From a virus: a DNA stretch of 21,917 nucleotides. Shown one piece after another: positions 2,228 through 21,726 of the stretch. The translations under genes were made by a program, and so were the position numbers. Numbering within the stretch: the stretch's first letter is position 1; each line of letters begins with the position of its first letter. The stretch is taken from positions 1 through 21,917 of the IMG/VR virus record IMGVR_UViG_3300025759_000799; one strand, 5' to 3'. The notes under the pieces were generated by a model. It ran no database searches. It saw only the letters and a list, made by a program, of their open reading frames with translations, and was not told the DNA's origin.

Positions 2228-2346
2228 ACAGCCCACAACAAACCCGACAAGTTCTAACGAACCTACTGGAAGTGATGCGTCAACTGAAAGTTGAAAGCAT
2301 CAGCATCAAACAGTTAGAACAAATCATCGAAAGACTGAACCGATGA
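2224..2346 (+). CDS. 40-residue helical protein, unknown
   Basis: A short frame from ATG 2224 to TGA 2344-2346, with ATGA overlaps at both ends. The peptide starts MNSPQQTRQVLTNLLEVMRQ and continues LKVESISIKQLEQIIERLNR. It is predicted as two amphipathic helices with leucine/isoleucine spacing, compatible with a small coiled-coil or dimeric binding peptide. Operon position and exact coupling to both neighbours support translation. No function can be assigned. Confidence 0.6.
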   Translation: MNSPQQTRQVLTNLLEVMRQLKVESISIKQLEQIIERLNR

Positions 2347-2603
2347 TGAACAAAAAAGAACAACGGGAACGTGACCTGGAACGAATCAAACAATCCCAAC
2401 GTCACAAACGAGACCACTCAGCCTACTTCAACCTAGTCGGAGGACCATTCCACGGTCTACGACTCAGACTCTACGCCCCGTGGGACACGTTGAAGTTTGA
2501 AAACGGGGCACGATACGAAATCAGTCAACCACTAGCCAAAAACGGAGAATGGGTTTACATCCATGACAAGGAAAGCACAGGCATCGAAGCCCCAAACACC
2601 TGA
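2343..2603 (+). CDS. 86-residue GGPxxG-motif phage protein, unknown
   Basis: After a very charged helical start (NKKEQRERDLERIKQSQRHKRD), residues 30-80 carry NLVGGPFHGLRLRLY, a PWDTLKF strand, GARYEIS and GEWVYIHDK. The GGPxxG turn followed by beta strands recurs in short, uncharacterised proteins of actinophages and other phages. The start ATG overlaps the upstream stop. The last 41 bases are shared with the next gene. Codon third positions are strongly A/C, like the rest of this operon. Confidence 0.65.
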   Translation: MMNKKEQRERDLERIKQSQRHKRDHSAYFNLVGGPFHGLRLRLYAPWDTLKFENGARYEISQPLAKNGEWVYIHDKESTGIEAPNT

Positions 2604-2757
2604 CGTTGAAACCATCGAACAATGGTTGCAGTCAAAAGGCATCGGACTTTGGCCGAGCGTGTCAGCAATGATCACCGACCCGAGAGAACTCAGGCAAGCA
2701 GCACAATGGTTCCACAAGCAGATGTGTGAACTACAGGAACACATCGACCGAACCTGA
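2563..2757 (+). CDS. 64-residue protein, last gene of the + strand operon
   Basis: It starts at ATG 2563 inside the previous gene and ends at TGA 2755-2757, 16 bases before the terminator stem. The protein is soluble and probably helical (VETIEQWLQSKGI; DPRELRQAAQWFHKQM). No in-frame alternative start exists after the overlap, and the upstream Shine-Dalgarno match is weak, so translation may depend on coupling. No family is recognised. Confidence 0.55.
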   Translation: MTRKAQASKPQTPDVETIEQWLQSKGIGLWPSVSAMITDPRELRQAAQWFHKQMCELQEHIDRT

Positions 2758-2770
2758 CCCACAAACTAAG

Positions 2771-2802
2771 AAACCCCCCACACCATCCGGTGTGGGGGGT
2801 TT
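2771..2802. terminator. bidirectional intrinsic terminator at the convergence of the two operons
   Basis: An 11-bp perfect stem (2774-2784 with 2789-2799, CCCCCCACACC/GGTGTGGGGGG) has an ATCC loop. AAA at 2771-2773 faces TTT at 2800-2802. On the + strand it is followed by TTTTTGTGTTT; on the - strand it is followed by TTTC. It should stop the + operon efficiently and the - operon more weakly. Confidence 0.93.
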
Positions 2803-2807
2803 TTGTG

Positions 2808-2820
2808 TTTCAAACTGAAA
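2808..2820. repeat. dispersed palindrome TTTCA-AAC-TGAAA
   Basis: Intergenic. It follows the + side T-run of the convergent terminator and sits seven bases from the endolysin stop. The symmetry extends by one base each side (GTTTCA...TGAAAC). Confidence 0.8.
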
Positions 2821-2826
2821 CCAGGA

Positions 2827-3657
2827 TCACATCCAAACACCAACAAGATCAACAATCACATGCGTCTCAGTACGCACAAACAACATGAACTTGCCGTCAG
2901 TCACCGGCACATCAATCTGATTCGCACACGGATCAGAATACCGATAGTTCAAATCAGACGTGATAGGACGAGCAGTAGCAGCAGGATAAGCAGTAATGAA
3001 CCCACGACCCGCAGCATCAACAGCAGTCAAGTTCACCTTCACAGCCTTAGCACCAGCAGGAACCTGAACCTCAACAGTGCCACCCGAAGGCACCTTGCCA
3101 GCAACCCGAAGCCCGCTAGTTTCCCGAGTGTCCAACAGGCGACGCTTATCGAAAACAAGTTCTTTCACAACAATCTTCTTTCTACCAGGAAACGGATACC
3201 CCTGCCTTGGGGCAGGGCTACCGGCAGACACCCAACTGGAATGCCCGTCGATTTCAATCGGTTGCATATGCCACGCCTCATTCGACACGTTGCAATGCAA
3301 ACCCCAAACGTGACTGATCGCAGAACCCTGCGGCAAAACATCATCCCAAGAAACACCGACATGAATCCCGCCATTAGGGGACCTTTTCACCAGATCGACA
3401 GCACACGCACCAATGAACCCGTCACTGTACTTCTGATTCTGATGAAACGACTTGCCCTCCGGCGCAAACCCCGGCTTGTCAGGCTGAGTCCCATCCTCAC
3501 GGAAATGTCCTCCGATACCAATCTCGCCACCCTTATAAGCCAGCCAAGCCAGCAGCCGTTCCAAATACTCTGGATGGTAATGAGGGAGCAGTTCCGCACG
3601 AATCTGCTCCAAAGTACGGTACGAAGTACCGTACCTCCAAGGATACGAATCAGCCAT
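2827..3657 (-). CDS. endolysin: M15-type zinc peptidase with actinobacterial C-terminal domain
   Basis: This 276-residue two-domain protein is likely to cut peptidoglycan peptide bonds at lysis. Residues 1-140 resemble the D-Ala-D-Ala carboxypeptidase/VanY (M15) fold. SFH (His72), AVD (Asp88) and NEAWH (Glu127, His130) match the usual zinc ligands and catalytic acid, with a longer loop than usual between His and Asp. After a Pro-rich linker, residues 170-276 form a beta-rich domain (RLLDTRETSG, VKVNLTAVDAAGRGF, THVIVDLVGVW) of a kind I associate with secreted actinobacterial proteins, here perhaps for wall binding. There is no signal peptide, so it needs a holin. ATG overlaps the end of the upstream gene by eight bases. 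Last gene of the late operon. Confidence 0.8.
   Translation of the reverse strand: MADSYPWRYGTSYRTLEQIRAELLPHYHPEYLERLLAWLAYKGGEIGIGGHFREDGTQPDKPGFAPEGKSFHQNQKYSDGFIGACAVDLVKRSPNGGIHVGVSWDDVLPQGSAISHVWGLHCNVSNEAWHMQPIEIDGHSSWVSAGSPAPRQGYPFPGRKKIVVKELVFDKRRLLDTRETSGLRVAGKVPSGGTVEVQVPAGAKAVKVNLTAVDAAGRGFITAYPAATARPITSDLNYRYSDPCANQIDVPVTDGKFMLFVRTETHVIVDLVGVWM
3614..3634 (-). repeat. perfect inverted repeat near the endolysin start
   Basis: The arms GTACGGTAC and GTACCGTAC (nine bp) have a three-base centre, 23 bases into the endolysin gene. In the mRNA the loop is UUC closed by C-G. It could slow ribosomes or mark a processing site. Confidence 0.6.
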
Positions 3658-6600
3658 TACCAGTCAACCTTTCCAACAAACGTCGCATAGCATCATCTTC
3701 AGCCTGGCTGCGTGCATCCATACTCCTAGCGTACATTTCGCCACGAATGTTCGACGGAGTGTTCTGACGCAACGGGACACCAGTGAACCCTAGAACGGAT
3801 TGCAGACGGCGTTCCTGATACTTCTGCTGATTCGGGTCAAGACGAGAGAACCGTCCAGCCAACGGAATCATATCCTCAATCACTTTCTGTGCCCGATCAG
3901 ACATCAACAACTGTCCGTTCACAACCTCAGCATCACCAGCAAGCGCCTTATCGGCAGCGAACTTGATCAGATTACTGACACCAGGGACAGCCATCCCAGT
4001 GAACGGGATTTCACCTTGAAACAATGACGGTGCCTGACGTGCAACCATCTGACCGTCAGGTCCACGCTCAAACAAATCGGTTCTCATCGGGGCGTTCGTG
4101 AACAACGAACGCCCCCGCAACAACTCCACCGGAGTTTTCACCAGCGGAGAAGTATCCGACAGCAACCTGACCGGATTGAACTCGTCACCAGTAGCAGTAA
4201 TCGAAGCCAAATCTTGCCGGAACCTGAGAGACGGCAAATCAGGAGTCAAATACCATGCTGAACCGCCACCCTCACCGGCAGGAATCCTGATCGCACCAAG
4301 TTCCTCAAACCATGACGGCACAACAGTATCGTCATCCTCGGAAGCAATCTCCAAGTTCTTTTTCAAATTGAAATACGACTGGTTCAACTTCTGAGGGAAC
4401 CTAGTCCACACCTGAGACTGGAGAGCCATGTTCCGAGAATAGAACGTCCAGAACGGCATCACACGCTTAGCGACACGATCAAACTCTGAAATGTCACGAT
4501 AGTTGAAATGGAACATTTCGACCCTACGGATCGCCTCATTCATATCGCCGCCACGAAGAATCACATCGTAACCGTGACTGCCACGCAGCAGCGCCTCAAC
4601 ACCAGATGACTTCCCACGAATGTAACCAGTCGGAACGAACTCCACACTGAACGGATTCCAGGAACGCTTACCAATCAACTGGCTGCCAACCTCCTGCGGA
4701 GTCAAACCCCAACCCGTAGCAGAAGCAGACCTCAACGCTTCCTCGAAAGCCTCCAACTCTCGTTTCGAATACCCGTGCTGAGCACCCCACTTCAAAGCAG
4801 CATCCAAACCAAAATCACGGTTGCCGTTACCGGCAACCCGTGCGAACACGGTCGGCTCATGATACTGACGGAGCAGACGATTGAACCGGACAACATTTCG
4901 AGTTGAAACACCATCCAGATACATGCCGAACGCACCAGAATAAAAGTTGCGCCACACGAAACCAGGAGACGTAGTAGCCCAACCCTTCCACACGTTCATA
5001 ATCTTGTCGTGACCCTCAATGAACTTGCGGAGCTTACCCCAATCCTCAGCAGACCTAGGCACAGACTGGAAAGCCTCATCGAACCATTTAGGCACAGAAA
5101 TCTGTGAATCAATCATCTTGAAACCATCTTCCAACACCCTCTGCATGTGGCGCTGGAACTTAGGGTCACTCAGATTCTTCACAATCTCATTCGAAGCATC
5201 CCTGGCAGTTTGACGTGCCTTATACGCAGACATGTCATGAGCCAAAGCCTGCGATTCCATCTTCTTCACAATATCTGAAATCGGATCGGCACCAGCATCC
5301 TGCAACGACTGTTTCACAACCATCGTGCGAGCCTTCAACTCGCCAGCCAAAGCCCCATCAACACCCTGGCGTGCGACATGAACCCGATCAAAATTATCGA
5401 GAACATTATTCAGCCGCAACATCAACGTGTCCGAATCAGTGACTAGCACATCGAACGCATGTGCAGCATCAGTGTACGCATCGTTGGCCTTCAGCCACCG
5501 ATCACGAGCCTGCAAAAGTTTCGTGTTAGCGCCCTGCACCTTCTGGCGAAGAACATACTGTTCCTTCGCATTCGGTGGCTTCATAGTCGGATCAGAAAGC
5601 TTATCGTACTGTTTCTGAAGTTTGCCCTGCTGCTTCGTCAGAACATCCAACTGCTTAGACAGTTCAGCCTGGTCTTTCAACAAAGCGTTACGGGCAGCCT
5701 CATTCTTCTTGCCACGCAACTTCTTGATCTGAGCCGTAGCATCATCAATCGTCTTGTTCAGATCATCAATTTCAGATTGAAACTTTTTGATCTTACGCAT
5801 GATCGGTGCCTTCTTGGCACCGAGAGCCTTACGGCCACGGGACTGGGCAGCCTGAAGTTGCCCTTCCCACATTTGCAAAGCAGCCTGCTTCTGATTGACA
5901 AGATCATTAGCATCATCAATCTTGTCACTCAACGACTTCAACCTGTCGCTCTGAGCCAACAACTTTTCCTCAGTATCCAACAGGTTAGAAGCAACCCCCT
6001 TACGGGCCTTCACAACCTCAGCATTAGCAGTCTTGATCGTTGCTCGGCGGGCATCCATCCCGGCACGAATCGCATCATCCTGAGCCTTGATAGCAGACTC
6101 AAGTTCAGTGTTCAGTTTCGCAGCCTTGCTGACATTCAAATCAACCTGATCGGCAGCCTTATAGATCGAACGACGCAAATGCGCTTTCTGTGCCTGAGCC
6201 ATATAAGCAGACATGAGGACACGAATGTCGTCCTCAAACAACTTGTACCCGTAATCAGGATGCCTCAAAGCAATATCGTTCAACTGCTTGATTGTCGCAT
6301 ACTCCAACCCGATATCAGGGATCGTTTCACCAAGGAACTCCATCCCAGGCTTCAACGTCCTCGTCTTTTGGAAAGCCTCAGCAGCATTCAAACCTGCACT
6401 AGAAAGCCGAGTATCGCCACTTAAGACGGCCCGCTTACCCTTAGAGGTAAGCAGGTGGTTCACATAGTTATCGACATAGCCGAAATCGAGGCCCATCGAA
6501 ACCATTTCTTTATGGATATCATCGTAGAACCCGGACAGACGTTGCGCCAAATCGTTGTCCAGAATGCCACGCTCAATATCGTCAGCCAACTTGATGGCGT

Positions 6601-7849
6601 CCTCATCAGACAACTTCGGAAGTTCCTTACCGAACATCCGTTTCACATCAATCATCTTCTTATCAAGCCAACTATACGATTCGGCCTTGGCGAGCTTGAT
6701 CGCAACAAGGCCACGGGCCGCATCAGCAGAACTGGAAGCACCAGTCAAAACCTCGTTCACGAAACGACGTTCAGCCTGACCGATAACATCATCACCGCCA
6801 GTAAAAATGCTGCGTGCCTTACGGGCAGCAGCAGAATTACCGTAAGCCATCTTGATGTTGCCCTTCAGGTTCTCAGCCATTTCAGCCAAAGCCCTACTGG
6901 CACGCTCACCACCAACATTCAGGCTGATATTGCCACGCCCGAACGTCAAACCGAAATCGGCTTGCAAACCAAGTTCACGCAACAACTGATCGTCAGCACC
7001 AGCAGCACGCTGCAAACCCTTACGGGTAAAAGCGCCACGGCCACGCAAACCAGCCTCACGGGCCAGGTTCTCAACACCCTCACCAACAATGTTCCGCTTC
7101 GCCGCTTCCTTCACAATCGTCTCAGCCAAACCACGCCGAGAACCAGAACGCAAAGCAGCATCCAAAGCCCTATTAGCATCAACGGCTTGACGGCCAGCAC
7201 GACGCACCGCACGGGAACCCAAACCCTCAGCCTGTGCAGCAGCACGGGCGATACCAGCAGCCCGCCCAGCCTCATACGCCCTACCGCCAGCAGTCAAACC
7301 CCTGACCGTACCGCCAGTCGCATACGTCAACGGGTCAGCAGCAATATCACCAATGAAACCGATAGTTGCGCCAACCCAAGGATTCCAACCCCTTTCCTCA
7401 GTGAACGCATTCTTATCGTTCATCAAATCCCGGAAACGATAATTGTCTCGGGTTTGCTGCCACCATTCCCCGAAACTAGCATCGCCACTATCTAGCGCAT
7501 CCCACGTTTCCTTGAGGCCACTGACAACAGCAGCCCTGGGCGTGTCAACGACATCAAGAATCCCACTGAAAATCTTTGATGCCGTTGAAGGCTCCGGTGC
7601 CTTGAACGCACCGTTTTCAAACTGAAAACCTGCCACAGCCTTCGAAATATCATCAGCAGAAAAACCAGGACCGTAACCAGCCATGCCAGGAACACCACCA
7701 ACCCCCGGTGTGACGGGGGTTGGTCGTAGCACGTTAGCTAAATCTGCTGCACTAGTACCAAGACCACCCAAACCCACATTTACCCGTGGGAGAGGATTAT
7801 ATCCTTCTCGTTGAGCAGCAGCCTCACGAATCTGATCAATCAACGCCAT
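3650..7849 (-). CDS. very large internal virion / DNA-ejection protein (1399 aa)
   Basis: The largest gene of the window. The N-terminal quarter is Gly/Ala rich, with a hydrophobic stretch near residues 155-190 (NPWVGATIGFIGDIAADPLT). Residues about 580-765 are a long Lys/Gln/Asp-rich coiled coil. Near residues 1112-1140, HFNYRDISEFDRVAKRVMPF and WTFYSRN recall a motif I know from large phage virion proteins. Size and position at the end of the podovirus structural operon, next to the lysin, match ejection proteins such as T7 gp15/gp16, which leave the capsid and form a conduit across the envelope. No peptidoglycan hydrolase motif was seen. It could instead be a large minor head protein. ATG 7849 is preceded by the stop of the 301-aa gene with a three-base gap. 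Confidence 0.65.
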   Translation of the reverse strand: MALIDQIREAAAQREGYNPLPRVNVGLGGLGTSAADLANVLRPTPVTPGVGGVPGMAGYGPGFSADDISKAVAGFQFENGAFKAPEPSTASKIFSGILDVVDTPRAAVVSGLKETWDALDSGDASFGEWWQQTRDNYRFRDLMNDKNAFTEERGWNPWVGATIGFIGDIAADPLTYATGGTVRGLTAGGRAYEAGRAAGIARAAAQAEGLGSRAVRRAGRQAVDANRALDAALRSGSRRGLAETIVKEAAKRNIVGEGVENLAREAGLRGRGAFTRKGLQRAAGADDQLLRELGLQADFGLTFGRGNISLNVGGERASRALAEMAENLKGNIKMAYGNSAAARKARSIFTGGDDVIGQAERRFVNEVLTGASSSADAARGLVAIKLAKAESYSWLDKKMIDVKRMFGKELPKLSDEDAIKLADDIERGILDNDLAQRLSGFYDDIHKEMVSMGLDFGYVDNYVNHLLTSKGKRAVLSGDTRLSSAGLNAAEAFQKTRTLKPGMEFLGETIPDIGLEYATIKQLNDIALRHPDYGYKLFEDDIRVLMSAYMAQAQKAHLRRSIYKAADQVDLNVSKAAKLNTELESAIKAQDDAIRAGMDARRATIKTANAEVVKARKGVASNLLDTEEKLLAQSDRLKSLSDKIDDANDLVNQKQAALQMWEGQLQAAQSRGRKALGAKKAPIMRKIKKFQSEIDDLNKTIDDATAQIKKLRGKKNEAARNALLKDQAELSKQLDVLTKQQGKLQKQYDKLSDPTMKPPNAKEQYVLRQKVQGANTKLLQARDRWLKANDAYTDAAHAFDVLVTDSDTLMLRLNNVLDNFDRVHVARQGVDGALAGELKARTMVVKQSLQDAGADPISDIVKKMESQALAHDMSAYKARQTARDASNEIVKNLSDPKFQRHMQRVLEDGFKMIDSQISVPKWFDEAFQSVPRSAEDWGKLRKFIEGHDKIMNVWKGWATTSPGFVWRNFYSGAFGMYLDGVSTRNVVRFNRLLRQYHEPTVFARVAGNGNRDFGLDAALKWGAQHGYSKRELEAFEEALRSASATGWGLTPQEVGSQLIGKRSWNPFSVEFVPTGYIRGKSSGVEALLRGSHGYDVILRGGDMNEAIRRVEMFHFNYRDISEFDRVAKRVMPFWTFYSRNMALQSQVWTRFPQKLNQSYFNLKKNLEIASEDDDTVVPSWFEELGAIRIPAGEGGGSAWYLTPDLPSLRFRQDLASITATGDEFNPVRLLSDTSPLVKTPVELLRGRSLFTNAPMRTDLFERGPDGQMVARQAPSLFQGEIPFTGMAVPGVSNLIKFAADKALAGDAEVVNGQLLMSDRAQKVIEDMIPLAGRFSRLDPNQQKYQERRLQSVLGFTGVPLRQNTPSNIRGEMYARSMDARSQAEDDAMRRLLERLTGNG
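4009..4021. repeat. dispersed palindrome TTTCA-CCT-TGAAA
   Basis: Inside the 1399-residue gene, near its 3' end. It has the only C/C/T centre among the exact copies. Confidence 0.55.
4089..4115 (-). repeat. 11-bp perfect inverted repeat in the 1399-aa gene
   Basis: GGGGCGTTCGT and ACGAACGCCCC with a five-base loop. There is no T-run on either strand, so it is not a classical terminator. Confidence 0.6.
4363..4375. repeat. dispersed palindrome TTTCA-AAT-TGAAA
   Basis: Inside the 1399-residue gene, where the - strand encodes YFNLKK. Identical in all 13 bases to the intergenic copies at 11181 and 18272. Confidence 0.65.
5770..5782. repeat. dispersed palindrome TTTCA-GAT-TGAAA
   Basis: Inside the coiled-coil-encoding part of the 1399-residue gene (encodes KFQSEI). 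Confidence 0.55.
7615..7627. repeat. dispersed palindrome TTTCA-AAC-TGAAA
   Basis: Inside the 5' part of the 1399-residue gene (encodes GFQFEN). The symmetry extends to TTTTCA...TGAAAA. Confidence 0.65.
7697..7724 (-). repeat. 11-bp perfect inverted repeat near the 5' end of the 1399-aa gene
   Basis: ACCAACCCCCG and CGGGGGTTGGT with a six-base loop, about 125 bases after the start codon. It encodes a Pro/Gly/Val-rich linker. Confidence 0.6.
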
Positions 7850-11193: not shown

Positions 11194-12750
11194 TCAACGC
11201 AACTGCTTACGCCGGAACGGCAAAGCAATCGAATCAACCCACCAACGACCAGGATTATCCTCAGAACTAAAACGGAACTGAACCGCATAACTAGAACCAG
11301 CAGAAGGCTGCCGAGCAAAGAAATAAGTATCATCAAAATCTGCTGCCCACGGATCACCCCAATCCATAGTTCCCCACAACGAATCTTCGTCAGTCACAAT
11401 AGGGATCGTAGACGACTTACGAACATTGTTCTCATAGAAATCATGGAACACATCCATGTCCAACGTCGTAGAAGTCTCAGCAGCCGCAGTAACCCGAGGC
11501 CGCTGCCACCGCTTCTTCGAAGCAGTCTCACCACCAGTAATCCAAGAAGTCCTGTAATAGCCGTCAATACGAGTAACAACATCATCAACGCCATCGTTGA
11601 TGATGTCAACCGAATACTCACGGTCATACCGATACAAATTGTTATCAGACAAATGAACACTGTAAAGCGAATGCTCAGCAGACATAGATTCCCAATGCCA
11701 CATGTCAGTGATCTGCTTGTCGTACCGAGTCAAAGACCGGCTCGACGGATCGTAAACGAACAGCCACCAGTCAACATCCTCAGCAGGACCAGCAACAAGA
11801 GACATGAACAAACGTCCATCAGCCCACACAACACGATGACTGCCAGAATGAGCAATTTTCCCTGACTCAACCCACCAACGCAAATTGTTCGTCAACGGCA
11901 CAACCCCAGAACCGTTGTACGCCATGATCTGACCGTCACCAGAAATCCAATACGCAACACCACTATTGTACGCAACATTCCGGCAACAATTGATCCCAGA
12001 AGCCCCAGTCAAACGCTCAACAAAGAAATCGTCCCGAGAATAACCGTAAACCACATGCACCGAACGTGCCTTGAACACCAGCAACTGATCCTTGAACGGC
12101 ACCAAAGCCGTCACAGGATCACCATCATCACCAGGATCAACATCAAAATAGTCGTCAGTAGCCCAATCCTCAGGCTGCTGCAAATGCGAAAACCGGACAC
12201 GATGCGGATACCTCACACCAGACTCAACAGTGTCAGCAACCCACAAATAGCCGTTATGGTTCGCAACCATCCGAGCCTTCGGCATATCGCCACCATCAGG
12301 CAACGTGTAATCATCATTGAACGTTGACCCCAACGTGGTCAACGTTGACCCATCCCAAGACTGCGAAATGATCGACCCAGACGAACGACCGTTCGTAATA
12401 TAAACTTTCGAATTGAAACTCGTAGCCCGAATCACATCCGAAGTATCAGACAAATCCTCAGTCGTATCCGTCAAAGTGGAACCATCCCACTCCAACAAAC
12501 TCCCATCAGTAGCCGCCAGCAACATCACATCATTAGCGAAATACGACGGACAAAGAAACGTTGCACCCTGAAGCAACGAATCATACGCCTGAGATTGAAA
12601 CCCGCCACGCAACACAAAACCGCCACGCAACCCGAAATCAACATTCAAACAATCAGGTGTCTCATTCTCATTCAAGTTCTGCTGCTGAGAAGTCAGGTTC
12701 AACCCGCCCGAGAAATCTCGCATATAGATAACACCATTAGGAGTAGCCAT
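11194..12750 (-). CDS. tail tubular protein B-like nozzle protein (518 aa)
   Basis: Matches podovirus nozzle proteins (T7 gp12 / P22 gp10 class) in style. It opens MATPNGVIYMRDFSGGLNLT and then runs as repeating beta strands with Trp-Asp-Gly turns typical of a propeller (SLLEWDGSTL, SQSWDGSTL, IMAYNGSG). The best-conserved-looking part is residues about 212-275, VTALVPFKDQLLVFKARS to GVAYWISGDGQ. The protein would form the distal end of the short tail below the adaptor. The ATG overlaps the adaptor stop (TGATG) with AGGGGG upstream, which fits near 1:1 coupled synthesis with its partner. Confidence 0.8.
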   Translation of the reverse strand: MATPNGVIYMRDFSGGLNLTSQQQNLNENETPDCLNVDFGLRGGFVLRGGFQSQAYDSLLQGATFLCPSYFANDVMLLAATDGSLLEWDGSTLTDTTEDLSDTSDVIRATSFNSKVYITNGRSSGSIISQSWDGSTLTTLGSTFNDDYTLPDGGDMPKARMVANHNGYLWVADTVESGVRYPHRVRFSHLQQPEDWATDDYFDVDPGDDGDPVTALVPFKDQLLVFKARSVHVVYGYSRDDFFVERLTGASGINCCRNVAYNSGVAYWISGDGQIMAYNGSGVVPLTNNLRWWVESGKIAHSGSHRVVWADGRLFMSLVAGPAEDVDWWLFVYDPSSRSLTRYDKQITDMWHWESMSAEHSLYSVHLSDNNLYRYDREYSVDIINDGVDDVVTRIDGYYRTSWITGGETASKKRWQRPRVTAAAETSTTLDMDVFHDFYENNVRKSSTIPIVTDEDSLWGTMDWGDPWAADFDDTYFFARQPSAGSSYAVQFRFSSEDNPGRWWVDSIALPFRRKQLR

Positions 12751-16533: not shown

Positions 16534-16710
16534 TCAGGCGTCAAGCCAAGCCTGAGCGGAACGGCCAACCCAGTTCCACACAGCAACCAGACCAGCAATG
16601 CCAGCAGCCTTGAAAAACGACACATCAAAAACAGCCGCAGTCAAAGGCGCAGCAGTAGCACCAGCAACAAACGTGATCACAGCACGATCAAAAGCATCAC
16701 GGTAACTCAT
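16534..16710 (-). CDS. holin, r1t-like (58 aa)
   Basis: The protein is MSYRDAFDRAV, then two hydrophobic segments at about residues 12-30 and 34-50 separated by DVSF, ending WVGRSAQAWLDA. Length, the charged start and two short helices match r1t-type holins common in phages of Gram-positive hosts. These make inner-membrane holes that release the endolysin. ATG 16710 lies right after the previous stop (TGATATG). ATG 16722, four codons earlier, is an alternative that overlaps the previous gene. The endolysin is 13 kb downstream, so the lysis genes are split. Confidence 0.6.
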   Translation of the reverse strand: MSYRDAFDRAVITFVAGATAAPLTAAVFDVSFFKAAGIAGLVAVWNWVGRSAQAWLDA

Positions 16711-16711
16711 A

Positions 16712-16924
16712 TCAAACCCCATGTTTCTCATCATGTTCAAGATGCCACTCAATATGCTTATCGAGCCGACCATCAATCTTGTCAACCTTAGAATCAATCG
16801 ACCGAAGCAAACCAGCATTCGCCTCATGATCCCGATTGTTACGGCGATGCATACGTTCCAGCAACGTCACAATAACCCCACTCGGTGCAAGCACAGCCAA
16901 AAGCACCCCCTGCCAAACCTGCAT
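16712..16924 (-). CDS. DUF2746-like membrane protein with coiled coil (70 aa)
   Basis: One N-terminal transmembrane helix (VLLAVLAPSGVIVTLLE, about residues 7-23) is followed by a basic patch (RMHRRNNR) and a soluble coiled coil (LLRSIDSKVDKIDGRLDKHI). This matches small actinophage proteins annotated as DUF2746, from memory. Lying directly before a holin-like gene, it may be a second holin component, antiholin or spanin-like factor. By topology rules the basic patch after the helix suggests the coiled coil is cytoplasmic. Start ATG 16924, with AAGG and GGTAAG upstream. Confidence 0.6.
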   Translation of the reverse strand: MQVWQGVLLAVLAPSGVIVTLLERMHRRNNRDHEANAGLLRSIDSKVDKIDGRLDKHIEWHLEHDEKHGV

Positions 16925-17289: not shown

Positions 17290-18255
17290 TCAGGCAGGAG
17301 CCGTAACTCCAGACAGCTTACCAATCGAACGACGAGAATCAGTCGCAAACGTGCCGTAGCACAGAATCAGACCATACTCGGCATCCTTATCGTAAGGCTG
17401 CACGAAACCGTTGAACTTCATCCACTTCGAATCAAGCACCGACAGCTTCACATGGTTGCTGTTCAGGAAGTACCACTCGCCAGACGGGCAGTAATCCGAC
17501 CAAACAACAACGCCACCCTTATGGAGCAGGTTATCGAAACCAGCCTTCGCAGTGCTCGCATCAGTGAACCGCTGCTGAGCCTGAAGCAGTTCCTCATAAC
17601 CCTCATACAGAGCCTGAGTCGTCACCTCAAAGTCGCACTTGTCAGTACCATACGACACCGAGTTGTACTTGTTCGACAGAACAGGAAGGGTGAGGGCACC
17701 AACCGAAGTGGCGACCGAAGCCTGCCACCAAGTATCAGCCGTACCATCAATCCCACCAACATCAGTGGACGAGTTATTCGTCCACAGCTTCAGACCAGCC
17801 CACTCCTTAGCCGAAGGCGTGTAAGTCGTCTGCCCGTTGTCAGTACCAGCACCATCAGCCAGGAAGAACATTTCCTCAAAGACCTCGGCAGCCGTGGTCT
17901 CAGCGTTCATCGTCTTAGCCTTCAGCAGATTGATAACAGCCTTATCACCGCTGTTCTTCGCCTGCTCCAGACCGCTGATCGGAACATAAATAGCCGACTG
18001 CTTCCAGTCGTACTCGGCAGTGTCGATGATTTCATCGACCGCCGGGGTAAGCGTATCGTAACCAGAGTAGTTCTGGAACGTGCTGTTACGGGCACCCATA
18101 ACCGGATGCACCGCATTACGTCCACCCTGAGCGTCAAGCTTCGCACGCCGCTTCAGGAAGTCCAGAACAGCAGTACGAGCAAAAATGTTGTCAGTGGCCT
18201 TCCCCGAAGTGAAGTAACGCTCCAGAGTAGTACCAATAATGTTATCCATAGCCAT
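17290..18255 (-). CDS. major capsid protein (321 aa)
   Basis: The protein resembles HK97-fold coat proteins of podo- and siphophages. Recognisable stretches include TERYFTSG-like N-arm residues, TAEYDWKQSAIYVPISGLEQ, GDKAVINLLKAKTMNAETT and GVVVWSDYCPSGEWYFLNSN. There is no HK97-type N-terminal delta domain. A separate scaffold gene upstream supplies that role. ATG 18255 has GGGAGA five bases upstream, the strongest ribosome site of the block. It is bracketed by scaffold and a strong terminator, consistent with the highest expression of the operon. Its codons mix G and C more than its neighbours. Confidence 0.85.
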   Translation of the reverse strand: MAMDNIIGTTLERYFTSGKATDNIFARTAVLDFLKRRAKLDAQGGRNAVHPVMGARNSTFQNYSGYDTLTPAVDEIIDTAEYDWKQSAIYVPISGLEQAKNSGDKAVINLLKAKTMNAETTAAEVFEEMFFLADGAGTDNGQTTYTPSAKEWAGLKLWTNNSSTDVGGIDGTADTWWQASVATSVGALTLPVLSNKYNSVSYGTDKCDFEVTTQALYEGYEELLQAQQRFTDASTAKAGFDNLLHKGGVVVWSDYCPSGEWYFLNSNHVKLSVLDSKWMKFNGFVQPYDKDAEYGLILCYGTFATDSRRSIGKLSGVTAPA

Positions 18256-19806: not shown

Positions 19807-21726
19807 TTACATTCCAGGCATCGGACCTGGAACACCTTGCGGTGGCATACCGCCACCGCCCATCATTTGAGCAAGCATTTCAGGAGGGATGCCCGCCATT
19901 TCTGGCGGCATCCCCGGAGGCATCTCCGGAGGCATACCTTCAGGTGGCATACCCGGAGGTGCTGCTTCCGGCATCGGAGGCTGCGGACCCGGACCCATCA
20001 TTTGATCCGCATTCTTGATGCCAAACCCGAAACGCAACACATGCTCAATAATCTTCTGATCGTTCAACAGCCCCGAACCCAACATCGGAGACAACACATC
20101 CATCAACTGCAACGCAGACTGACGACGGAACGACTCATTATGAGGTTGAGAAGAACCAGCCTCAACCTCAAACACAAAATCGCCCTGCAACACAGTGCGA
20201 TCATAACGCACCCAACTAACAACCTTATTCTCGTCAATCACCCGAGCAACATCCTCAGTGTCCATAAACACCTGAGAAAGTTTGATCATACGCTCAGCGA
20301 CCCGGCCCATAGCCTGCTCAATCTTATACAACTTGTCCGAAGAACGAGCATTAGCAGCATCCTGAATCAAACCGGCTTCCGTGGCAGTACGGCGAATATT
20401 CGCCGCCTGCCCACGGGAATACTCAGTGACACCAGAAATCATGTTGATGTCGTTCAGAATCATATCCGACTGGGTATACCACTCAGGATGCAACGCAGTC
20501 GGCTGAACCGACTGCAACACATCCCCAAACGGACGATCCTCCAACACATCAATCAGGACATCATCGTCACCAGACTCAAGAGCCTGCATACCTTCCGGGC
20601 CGATAGCCGCAGAACGCACCATATGAATCCGCTTACCATGCTTACGATCATTGATCATAGCGGTACGGGTCATAGCCAACTCTAGCTGCAAACCATAAAT
20701 GGTTTCCAAATCACCAATCGGATAAAACCGTTCAGGGACCTCATAGTTCGGCATGAACACAAACGGATGCACACCAGGGAACGGAGACTGAGAAGGCTTC
20801 TGCAAAAATTCTTCGCACCCATCAGCGAAAACACAAACAGTTTCGTTGATCAAATCATAATACTCGTAGACAACAACGAAACCAGCATCCTTAGAACGAT
20901 GCGAATCATCAACCTTCACATCATCCCGAGCATCCGACAACACCGTAGCCTTCAACTTGCGTCGAGCCGAAGGCTGCCAATCCTCATTTTCACGGGCAAC
21001 CTGAATAGGCACAAACGAACGCTGAGCAATCCAACGCAAATCCTGCATACGCAAAGCATCAGGATCAACAACCATATCGAACGGGCTGATACGACGCACC
21101 AAAGGTGCGTCTTTCACCGTTTCCTCAACAGTACGAGGAACAGATTCAATAACCTCATCCATTGTCGGAAGATCATCTTCCAACACACCAGACTGAGCCA
21201 ACTGCTGCTGCATCATCACCTGTTCACGAACAGCGTCCTGCCATTCGTCAACAGACAACTCACGGTCAGCCATCTTAGTTTCCCAAGTGATCTTCACCCA
21301 GCCGTGACCAAGAATAACGAAATCCTTAGCGGCAGCACGGATTTCGTCCTGGACATCAAACTCACGCCAATGATGATTCACCACCGCTTCAACAACAGCA
21401 GCAGTTTCACGATCCTTCGGATTCTTAGCAGTAACATTCACCTTCGGAATGTTCACAGCAATCGACGGAACAATCACGTTCACAGTCGAAAACGCCATAT
21501 TCGGCACAACAATATCCTCATATGAACCAAGTTCATCCCAAGGATACTTGTTGCTATAAATCTTGATCAGGTTAGACCACTTGTCATCCCACTCAGAATC
21601 CTTACGGAGACGCAAAGAGTTCTGCACGTTCGCCCGATGACGACCAAGTTTCTTCTTAGCGTTATCACGACCATAGCCATCACCAGACGACTCCTGGTCA
21701 ATGAACGCATCATAATTACTTGGCAT
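19807..21726 (-). CDS. portal protein (639 aa)
   Basis: It is a head-tail connector of about the length of podovirus portals. It would form the dodecameric ring through which DNA is packaged and ejected. Recognised parts include the N-terminal helix region, ETAAVVEAVVNHHWREFDVQ, FVILGHGWVKITWE, APLVRRISPFDMVVDPDA, PIGDLETIYGLQLELAMTRT and GQAANIRRTATEAGLIQDAA. The last 65 residues are a Met/Pro/Gly tail of PPGM and PPEM repeats, unusual and probably disordered. ATG 21726 overlaps the end of the upstream gene by 11 bases, with AGGTG upstream. Confidence 0.88.
   Translation of the reverse strand: MPSNYDAFIDQESSGDGYGRDNAKKKLGRHRANVQNSLRLRKDSEWDDKWSNLIKIYSNKYPWDELGSYEDIVVPNMAFSTVNVIVPSIAVNIPKVNVTAKNPKDRETAAVVEAVVNHHWREFDVQDEIRAAAKDFVILGHGWVKITWETKMADRELSVDEWQDAVREQVMMQQQLAQSGVLEDDLPTMDEVIESVPRTVEETVKDAPLVRRISPFDMVVDPDALRMQDLRWIAQRSFVPIQVARENEDWQPSARRKLKATVLSDARDDVKVDDSHRSKDAGFVVVYEYYDLINETVCVFADGCEEFLQKPSQSPFPGVHPFVFMPNYEVPERFYPIGDLETIYGLQLELAMTRTAMINDRKHGKRIHMVRSAAIGPEGMQALESGDDDVLIDVLEDRPFGDVLQSVQPTALHPEWYTQSDMILNDINMISGVTEYSRGQAANIRRTATEAGLIQDAANARSSDKLYKIEQAMGRVAERMIKLSQVFMDTEDVARVIDENKVVSWVRYDRTVLQGDFVFEVEAGSSQPHNESFRRQSALQLMDVLSPMLGSGLLNDQKIIEHVLRFGFGIKNADQMMGPGPQPPMPEAAPPGMPPEGMPPEMPPGMPPEMAGIPPEMLAQMMGGGGMPPQGVPGPMPGM

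Follow-up and report, generated by a model that had tools for sequence, protein, structure and literature searches.

A probable phage endolysin that joins a long-loop M15-type peptidase to a beta domain of bacterial exported proteins

A gene of an uncultured virus, analysed here within a stretch of 21,917 nucleotides (IMG/VR record IMGVR_UViG_3300025759_000799; hereafter the window), probably encodes a two-domain phage endolysin, in which an M15 peptidase is followed by a short linker and by one copy of a beta domain of bacterial exported proteins that would serve as the surface-binding part (Table 1). A first-pass annotation had proposed the fusion of such a peptidase with an exported-protein domain. 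The fusion is real and lies in one ORF of 276 amino acids; the coordinates given for it (2827-3657) were correct, and the ORF is on the minus strand, a point on which that annotation was silent. The lysin has the ordinary modular architecture, but both of its parts are uncommon: the peptidase belongs to a long-loop M15 family, and the tail is a borrowed exported-protein domain that has no name and is referred to here as the LDTR domain. The catalytic family escapes profile libraries in the case of the window protein. The LDTR domain is abundant in some Actinomycetota and Chloroflexota genomes, yet no Pfam or NCBIfam model and no function was found for it, and a lysin that has it in place of the peptidoglycan-binding domain of other lysins offers a direct and simple route to its ligand.

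Table 1 Features of the window discussed in the text
Feature	Position	Strand	Details
Endolysin gene	2827-3657	minus	276 aa; ATG at 3657, stop 2827-2829; terminal gene of the minus-strand block
M15-type zinc peptidase domain	3184-3657	minus	Residues 1-158; AlphaFold2 model, nearest folds, residue conservation
Linker	3145-3183	minus	Residues 159-171; gap between the two domains; pLDDT 48 for residues 161-165
C-terminal beta-sandwich domain	2830-3144	minus	Residues 172-276, one copy, LDTR motif; bacteria-only profile and AlphaFold2
Terminator-like hairpin	2771-2802	minus	Directly follows the lysin where two gene blocks converge; 14 pairs, 9 G-C
Portal	19807-21726	minus	Same block as the endolysin gene
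Major head protein	17290-18255	minus	Same block as the endolysin gene
Collagen-like fibre, 1017 aa	13464-16517	minus	Long collagen repeats, PF01391 E 1e-58
1399-aa giant protein	3650-7849	minus	Without Pfam family; sole listed match E 0.38
Candidate holin, 97-aa ORF	16534-16827	minus	Phage_r1t_holin PF16945 over residues 44-83; tentative

The start of the endolysin gene shares 8 bases with the end of the upstream giant gene, and no signal peptide was evident by eye in its 276 residues. Three terminator-like sites were found in the region (mean 1.7 in shuffled sequences), and the hairpin just downstream of the lysin has the longest stem, with 14 pairs against 5 and 7 in the other two. The candidate holin, located about 13 kb from the lysin, matched PF16945 with an E value of 0.0078 and 16.7 bits, below the cut-off of 26.9, and also matched a PHROGs family labelled nuclease (E 0.0055); we regard it as a tentative assignment for the holin of the window. 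The 21.9-kb record may be a fragment, and a lysin gene with 100% protein identity is present in a second record of 38.8 kb. A foreign origin judged by base composition was rejected, as GC was 54.0 in the N-terminal and 52.1 in the C-terminal domain compared to 51.2 in the window, and third-position GC (54.4 and 44.8, respectively) fell inside the range of 41.9-60.2 of six other genes in the block. In Podoviridae sp. ct52p938 (MW202803.1, Manatee Spring), a lysin occupies the same gene slot, the portal is 50% identical to that of the window, and the giant protein has a 27% identical relative that is annotated there as 'chromosome segregation'. Elsewhere in the window, a small plus-strand protein (1321-1713) showed sigma-factor-like PHROG matches (phrog_1740, E 1.9e-5).

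The window lysin had no match at E ≤ 1 in Pfam, NCBIfam or PHROGs, and PF01471 (PG_binding_1) was likewise unmatched in the Pfam scan. The M15 assignment, also made in the first-pass annotation, therefore needed other evidence, and it was borne out through the PF02557 matches of relatives, the predicted fold and the conserved catalytic residues, with no direct match to a curated model. When residues 1-158 of the window lysin and the corresponding stretch at locus L003 were used as queries, 41 viral loci were obtained, some of them near-identical. The alignment of 34 members leaves out seven near-copies, and the 38 full-length proteins that were scanned correspond to the 41 loci minus four identical ones plus L177. 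PF02557 (VanY) matched 13 of the 34 aligned relatives at E ≤ 10 (best 3.7e-6) and four of the 38 full-length proteins at E ≤ 1e-3. The hallmark of M15 enzymes is a set of His, Asp and His zinc ligands together with a catalytic Glu in an ExWH motif. In the lysin family, R53, H72, D88 and H130 were present in all 34 aligned members and E127 in 33, the exception (L014) having an insertion that adjoins an intact EAWH. H72, D88 and H130 are the predicted zinc ligands, and E127 is the predicted catalytic residue.

The AlphaFold2 model of residues 1-158 had a mean pLDDT of 92.7. Foldseek ranked Ply500, VanXYc and LysB4 as its three nearest folds, none of them at E 0.001. With VIA-align, Ply500 (2vo9) aligned with Z 9.1 and rmsd 3.2 over 124 residues and LysB4 (6akv) with Z 9.0; these two phage endolysins led 20 solved entries listed at Z ≥ 2, all of which we take from their titles to be M15-type enzymes. 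Taken on the predicted model, the M15-type fold and residues are established by computation. Searches by sequence were uninformative in three comparisons: the window protein against solved structures gave one chance match, a mandelate racemase; the catalytic-family profile A5 against solved structures gave three D-Ala-D-Ala carboxypeptidase sequences, all with E near 0.3; and the profile-profile comparison of A5 with P0005, the VanY-type lysin of MW202803.1, gave no useful alignment. Ply500 (from a Listeria phage) and LysB4 (from a Bacillus phage) follow the two-part endolysin plan and have the M15 catalytic fold and M15-type residues in common with the window lysin. However, identity in the structural alignment is 17% and their C-terminal domain is a different one; the window lysin also differs from them in its His-to-Asp distance (16 compared to the canonical 7) and in having no direct match to a curated family.

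The usual M15 spacing is His-x6-Asp, from which the lysin family departs. The distance from His to Asp was 16 residues in 33 of the 34 members and 12 in the remaining one, with the extended segment located at residues 73-87 in the window lysin, whereas it was 7 in the canonical P0005 (SNHGLGIAVD). The longer-than-usual loop remarked on in the first-pass annotation is a mark of the whole family and not a peculiarity of the window gene. The lysin of MW202803.1 is unlike that of the window in other respects as well, since it has the canonical SxHxxGxAxD, matches PF02557 and is encoded in a genome in which no beta domain was found over 38 kb.

Members of the catalytic family were found here solely in uncultured phage records. 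When three family members were compared by tblastn with 50,697 records of isolated phages, the catalytic domain had no match: the whole window protein (limit E 1) and L033 (limit 1e-5) gave none, and the five matches of L018 (limit 1e-5) were confined to its PG_binding_1 tail. A search of isolated phages with the C-terminal domain alone gave five matches with E values of 2 to 9. A PG_binding_1 tail was found in 21 of the 38 family members, and the beta domain took the tail position at three of the 41 loci, namely the window gene (represented by its near copy L002), L003 and L021. The other 14 of the 38 matched neither tail type, and some of these may match PG_binding_3 instead. The family thus combines a catalytic domain with a separate C-terminal domain that is swapped among relatives, and tail exchange of this kind is the ordinary behaviour of modular endolysins. 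At L003, the gene immediately before the lysin homologue is small and holin-like (PF23809, E 2.3e-5, 24.7 bits, cut-off 27), and in MW202803.1 a VanY-type lysin follows the homologous giant protein in the same slot. Together with the varied tails, these observations indicate that the slot is a lysin slot in which the tail is exchanged. A second L003 gene (7785-8069, minus strand) carries the C-terminal domain once; it lies at the cut end of the record, and its N-terminal part is missing.

The C-terminal domain (RLLDTRETSG...THVIVDLVGVW, residues 173-275) had been likened in the first-pass annotation to a domain of actinobacterial exported proteins, and this likeness was confirmed. A profile of 52 bacterial copies, from which every viral row had been removed, scored 71.4 bits on window residues 173-274 (i-Evalue 1.8e-19 at Z=50,000), whereas the highest score among 2,000 shuffled versions of the window domain was 9.3 bits. 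The same bacteria-only profile scored 61.4 bits on L003, 47.5 on L021 and 40.3 on the incomplete second gene of the L003 record. Identity with Streptomyces plasmid proteins was 31-39%, with matches in 10 of 11 records. The phage copy is therefore directly related in sequence to the LDTR domain in exported proteins of Streptomyces, Acidimicrobiia and Chloroflexota. The bacterial carriers differ from the lysin in being large and exported, as judged by eye from many N-termini that resemble signal peptides, and usually hold three tandem copies, whereas a single copy is joined to a lysin domain in the phage protein. No Pfam model reached its cut-off over the domain in three bacterial proteins scanned, and no NCBIfam model covered it in six. 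In the literature searched, drawn largely from outside subscription journals, neither the LDTR domain nor this lysin family had a description that we recognised, and the letters RLLDTR retrieved one unrelated paper.

AlphaFold2 predicted an eight-stranded, all-beta C-terminal domain with a mean pLDDT of 94.5, and R2, D5 and R7 of the LDTR motif are among eight positions that were invariant in 56 domain copies. A fold search of the PDB with this model gave no match at E ≤ 0.001, and several carbohydrate-binding modules were near the top of the ranking. The best VIA-align match was the fibre tip of the Bdellovibrio mosaic adhesive trimer Bd2133 (8ond, 8ok3), with Z 8.4, rmsd 2.4 and 15% identity over 91 of 105 residues, although a middling Z of this size may reflect merely a common arrangement. 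Overall, several of the highest-ranked folds were carbohydrate-binding modules or fibre tips. A viral structure library gave four matches at E ≤ 0.001, the best being a Xanthomonas phage protein labelled DUF2793-containing, and profile A6 matched solved structures at chance level (E 0.1 and above). In the available part of its description, the Bd2133 tip is a beta-sandwich of a kind not characterised before, with trimeric packing; the tip was included on a glycan array, for which that part of the paper reports binding for Bd2439 only (PMC10769870). Bd2133 differs from the lysin domain in its low identity, its absence from the sequence matches of profile A6 and its place in a long fibre, and the likeness is one of fold.

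In the proposed mechanism, the lysin, which seems to lack an export signal, would be released through a holin, and its zinc peptidase would cut a peptide bond of peptidoglycan. This bond would most likely be L-Ala-D-Glu, as judged from Ply500 and LysB4, both of which are specific for L-Ala-D-Glu. The C-terminal domain would take the place that PG_binding_1 has in the sister lysins and may recognise a wall or surface glycan that is also used by exported proteins of the host. The surface-binding role is the best inference because PG_binding_1 is found at the same position in 21 of the 38 sister lysins; a carbohydrate-binding role is weakly suggested by analogy, the fold matches being weak. The 14 members that match neither tail type imply that the tail need not bind the wall, and they are also what speaks for a mere stabilising tail or shield without a ligand. 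We consider such a tail unlikely, since the eight invariant positions in 56 copies and the wide reuse of the domain in exported proteins suggest a shared task. A different role for the whole protein, as a virion-associated wall hydrolase acting at entry instead of a lysis endolysin, would suit the 8-base overlap with the giant gene of the structural block. However, the L003 relative stands beside a holin-like gene, and 21 of 38 members have PG_binding_1 at the C-terminus, a common arrangement in endolysins. In addition, among the 15 of 88 ORFs scanned with Pfam or PHROGs, the only other lysis labels were the weak holin and a phrog_5107 'amidase', although another lysin could lie elsewhere because the record may be a fragment. 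The 'amidase' match (E 9.1e-8) covers the last third of a minus-strand protein (11194-12750) that also matches an internal virion protein family, which makes that protein a likelier virion-associated enzyme than the window lysin. Entry is thus an improbable role for the window protein, and we favour the lysis endolysin.

The number of domain copies bears on how the C-terminal domain may work. Among 75 complete arrays at the loci of the relatives search, 73 held exactly three copies and the other two held two, with linkers between tandem copies of mostly 11-22 residues. A count of 117 distinct arrays from the fetched bacterial loci and L133, with 14 incomplete arrays set aside, comprised 87 three-copy, four two-copy and 26 single-copy arrays, three being the maximum; the share of 26 is overstated, as single-copy proteins were fetched on purpose. 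The one- and two-copy counts are upper bounds, as L151 and L152 seem by eye to hold extra degenerate copies and L115 (G007:C8:2745-3765) has its three copies divided between two neighbouring ORFs, a pattern such as a frameshift or a sequence error would leave. The lysins of the window, L003 and L021 carry one copy each, so the window lysin does not share the three tandem copies of the bacterial proteins. Collagen-like runs and GVxG motifs point to trimeric stalks. Two of the 26 single-copy and none of the 87 three-copy proteins had a collagen-like run of 10 triplets or more. A density of at least one GVxG per 100 residues was found in eight of 26 and one of 87, respectively, counted outside the domain as a control because three-copy proteins also hold up to six GVxG motifs. 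Either sign was present in nine of the 26 single-copy proteins, from four genomes, and neither in 17, some of which are fragments; complete single-copy proteins without a stalk sign include L141, L142, L153, L155, L181 and L189.

These counts raise the alternative that oligomerisation is the main task of the C-terminal domain, through which three lysin chains would trimerise; any surface binding would then come from the trimer. The copy counts (73 of 75 and 87 of 117 arrays with three, none above), the stalk signs beside nine of the 26 single-copy domains and the trimeric Bd2133 tip as top fold match (Z 8.4) together suggest, without proving, that three domains work together, and if they do, a single-copy lysin would be expected to form a homotrimer. 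Four arrays nevertheless hold two copies, the single-copy proteins were selected on purpose, six of the nine with stalk signs come from a single genome (G506), and the Z score could reflect just a common arrangement. We slightly lowered our estimate for this alternative because 17 of 26 single-copy arrays are without either sign, and it now stands as a possibility that we rather doubt. A more specific proposal, which we hold slightly more doubtful still, is that the domain is a three-fold surface-binding module, present in bacteria as three tandem copies or as one on a trimeric stalk, so that the single phage copy would give a homotrimeric endolysin with three catalytic heads on a glycan-binding base. 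The model for such a design is LysBT1, an amidase endolysin that, in the available part of its description, trimerises and has a single SLH domain, which host proteins carry in three tandem copies (PMC12285257). As far as that part of the source goes, LysBT1 resembles the window lysin in using a domain of host surface proteins as its binding part, in one copy against three in the host. However, LysBT1 is an amidase and not an M15 enzyme, its SLH domain is helical where the window lysin has a beta sandwich, and trimer and binding are only predicted for the window lysin. If true, the three-fold proposal would be a second, unrelated instance of the LysBT1 design and would give the LDTR domain its function. 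Our preferred reading continues to be a two-domain endolysin whose C-terminal part binds the surface.

The first-pass annotation had taken the domain as the best clue to the host, whose group would be named if the domain occurred mostly in one actinobacterial lineage. The domain proved to be spread over lineages and beyond Actinobacteria. A relatives search gave 204 confirmed matches, of which 80 were kept, mostly from Streptomyces and Kitasatospora, in a list biased by a Streptomyces-derived query; further carriers among the 80 were Acidimicrobiia, Microbacterium, Terrabacter, Chloroflexi and two gammaproteobacteria. Genomes drawn evenly from each group, with the centres included, were scored with profile A3 at E ≤ 1e-10 on at most 23-32 candidates per genome, which gives lower bounds: the domain occurred in at least 16 of 198 Actinomycetota, at least 10 of 151 Chloroflexota and at least two of 200 Pseudomonadota genomes. 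In the class to which an Acidimicrobiia genome belongs, at least 20 of 148 genomes had it. Of the 16 carriers in the Actinomycetota draw, nine recur in the list for that class, and this overlap together with the class draw indicates that Acidimicrobiia contributes heavily, while the domain still names no lineage. The matches were not confined to groups outside Actinobacteria either, as those with names were mostly actinobacterial. The host clue holds to the extent that an actinobacterial-type host fits, with no named lineage and with Chloroflexota as a possible alternative; restriction to one lineage is contradicted by the Chloroflexota and Pseudomonadota carriers.

In a tree of 62 domain copies, the window copy stood beside the phage lysin L021 (85/93, on a long branch) and with no host lineage; 31 of the 59 inner branches were open, and the phage branches were long. 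The catalytic profile A5 found no match at E ≤ 1e-8 in 296, 396 and 301 genomes of the groups drawn above (overlapping groups, at most 9-12 candidates per genome, without a positive control), so the absence of a prophage match shows little. A genome-contig scan with profile A2 also found no relative. There were 186 domain matches in nine bacterial genomes chosen as carriers compared to three of 41 lysin loci, which makes capture from a bacterium the simpler reading, and the probable donor was of Actinomycetota or Chloroflexota type. The capture of a host domain, as the first-pass annotation had it, is thus upheld by copy counts as the simpler reading, although the tree shows no direction and leaves the host lineage unplaced.

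Several carriers of the domain stood apart. At L108, in a record titled Planococcus, the domain was closest to a Microbacterium copy (98/92), so that the record is likely to be mislabelled or contaminated. On L133, a viral-collection contig, a protein of 947 aa (2279-5122, plus strand) resembles the bacterial proteins in its signal-like N-terminus and its three LDTR copies. At L151 (G611:C1 near 350429), LDTR copies, some of them degenerate, are followed by a domain that looks sortase-like by eye and is presumably a sortase. L184 and L186 (genomes G525 and G455, from the Chloroflexota draw) encode S53-protease-like proteins, which we assume to be S53-type proteases, ending in one or two LDTR copies. 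Some genomes hold tens of domain copies, with 56 matches in G009 and 31 in G423.
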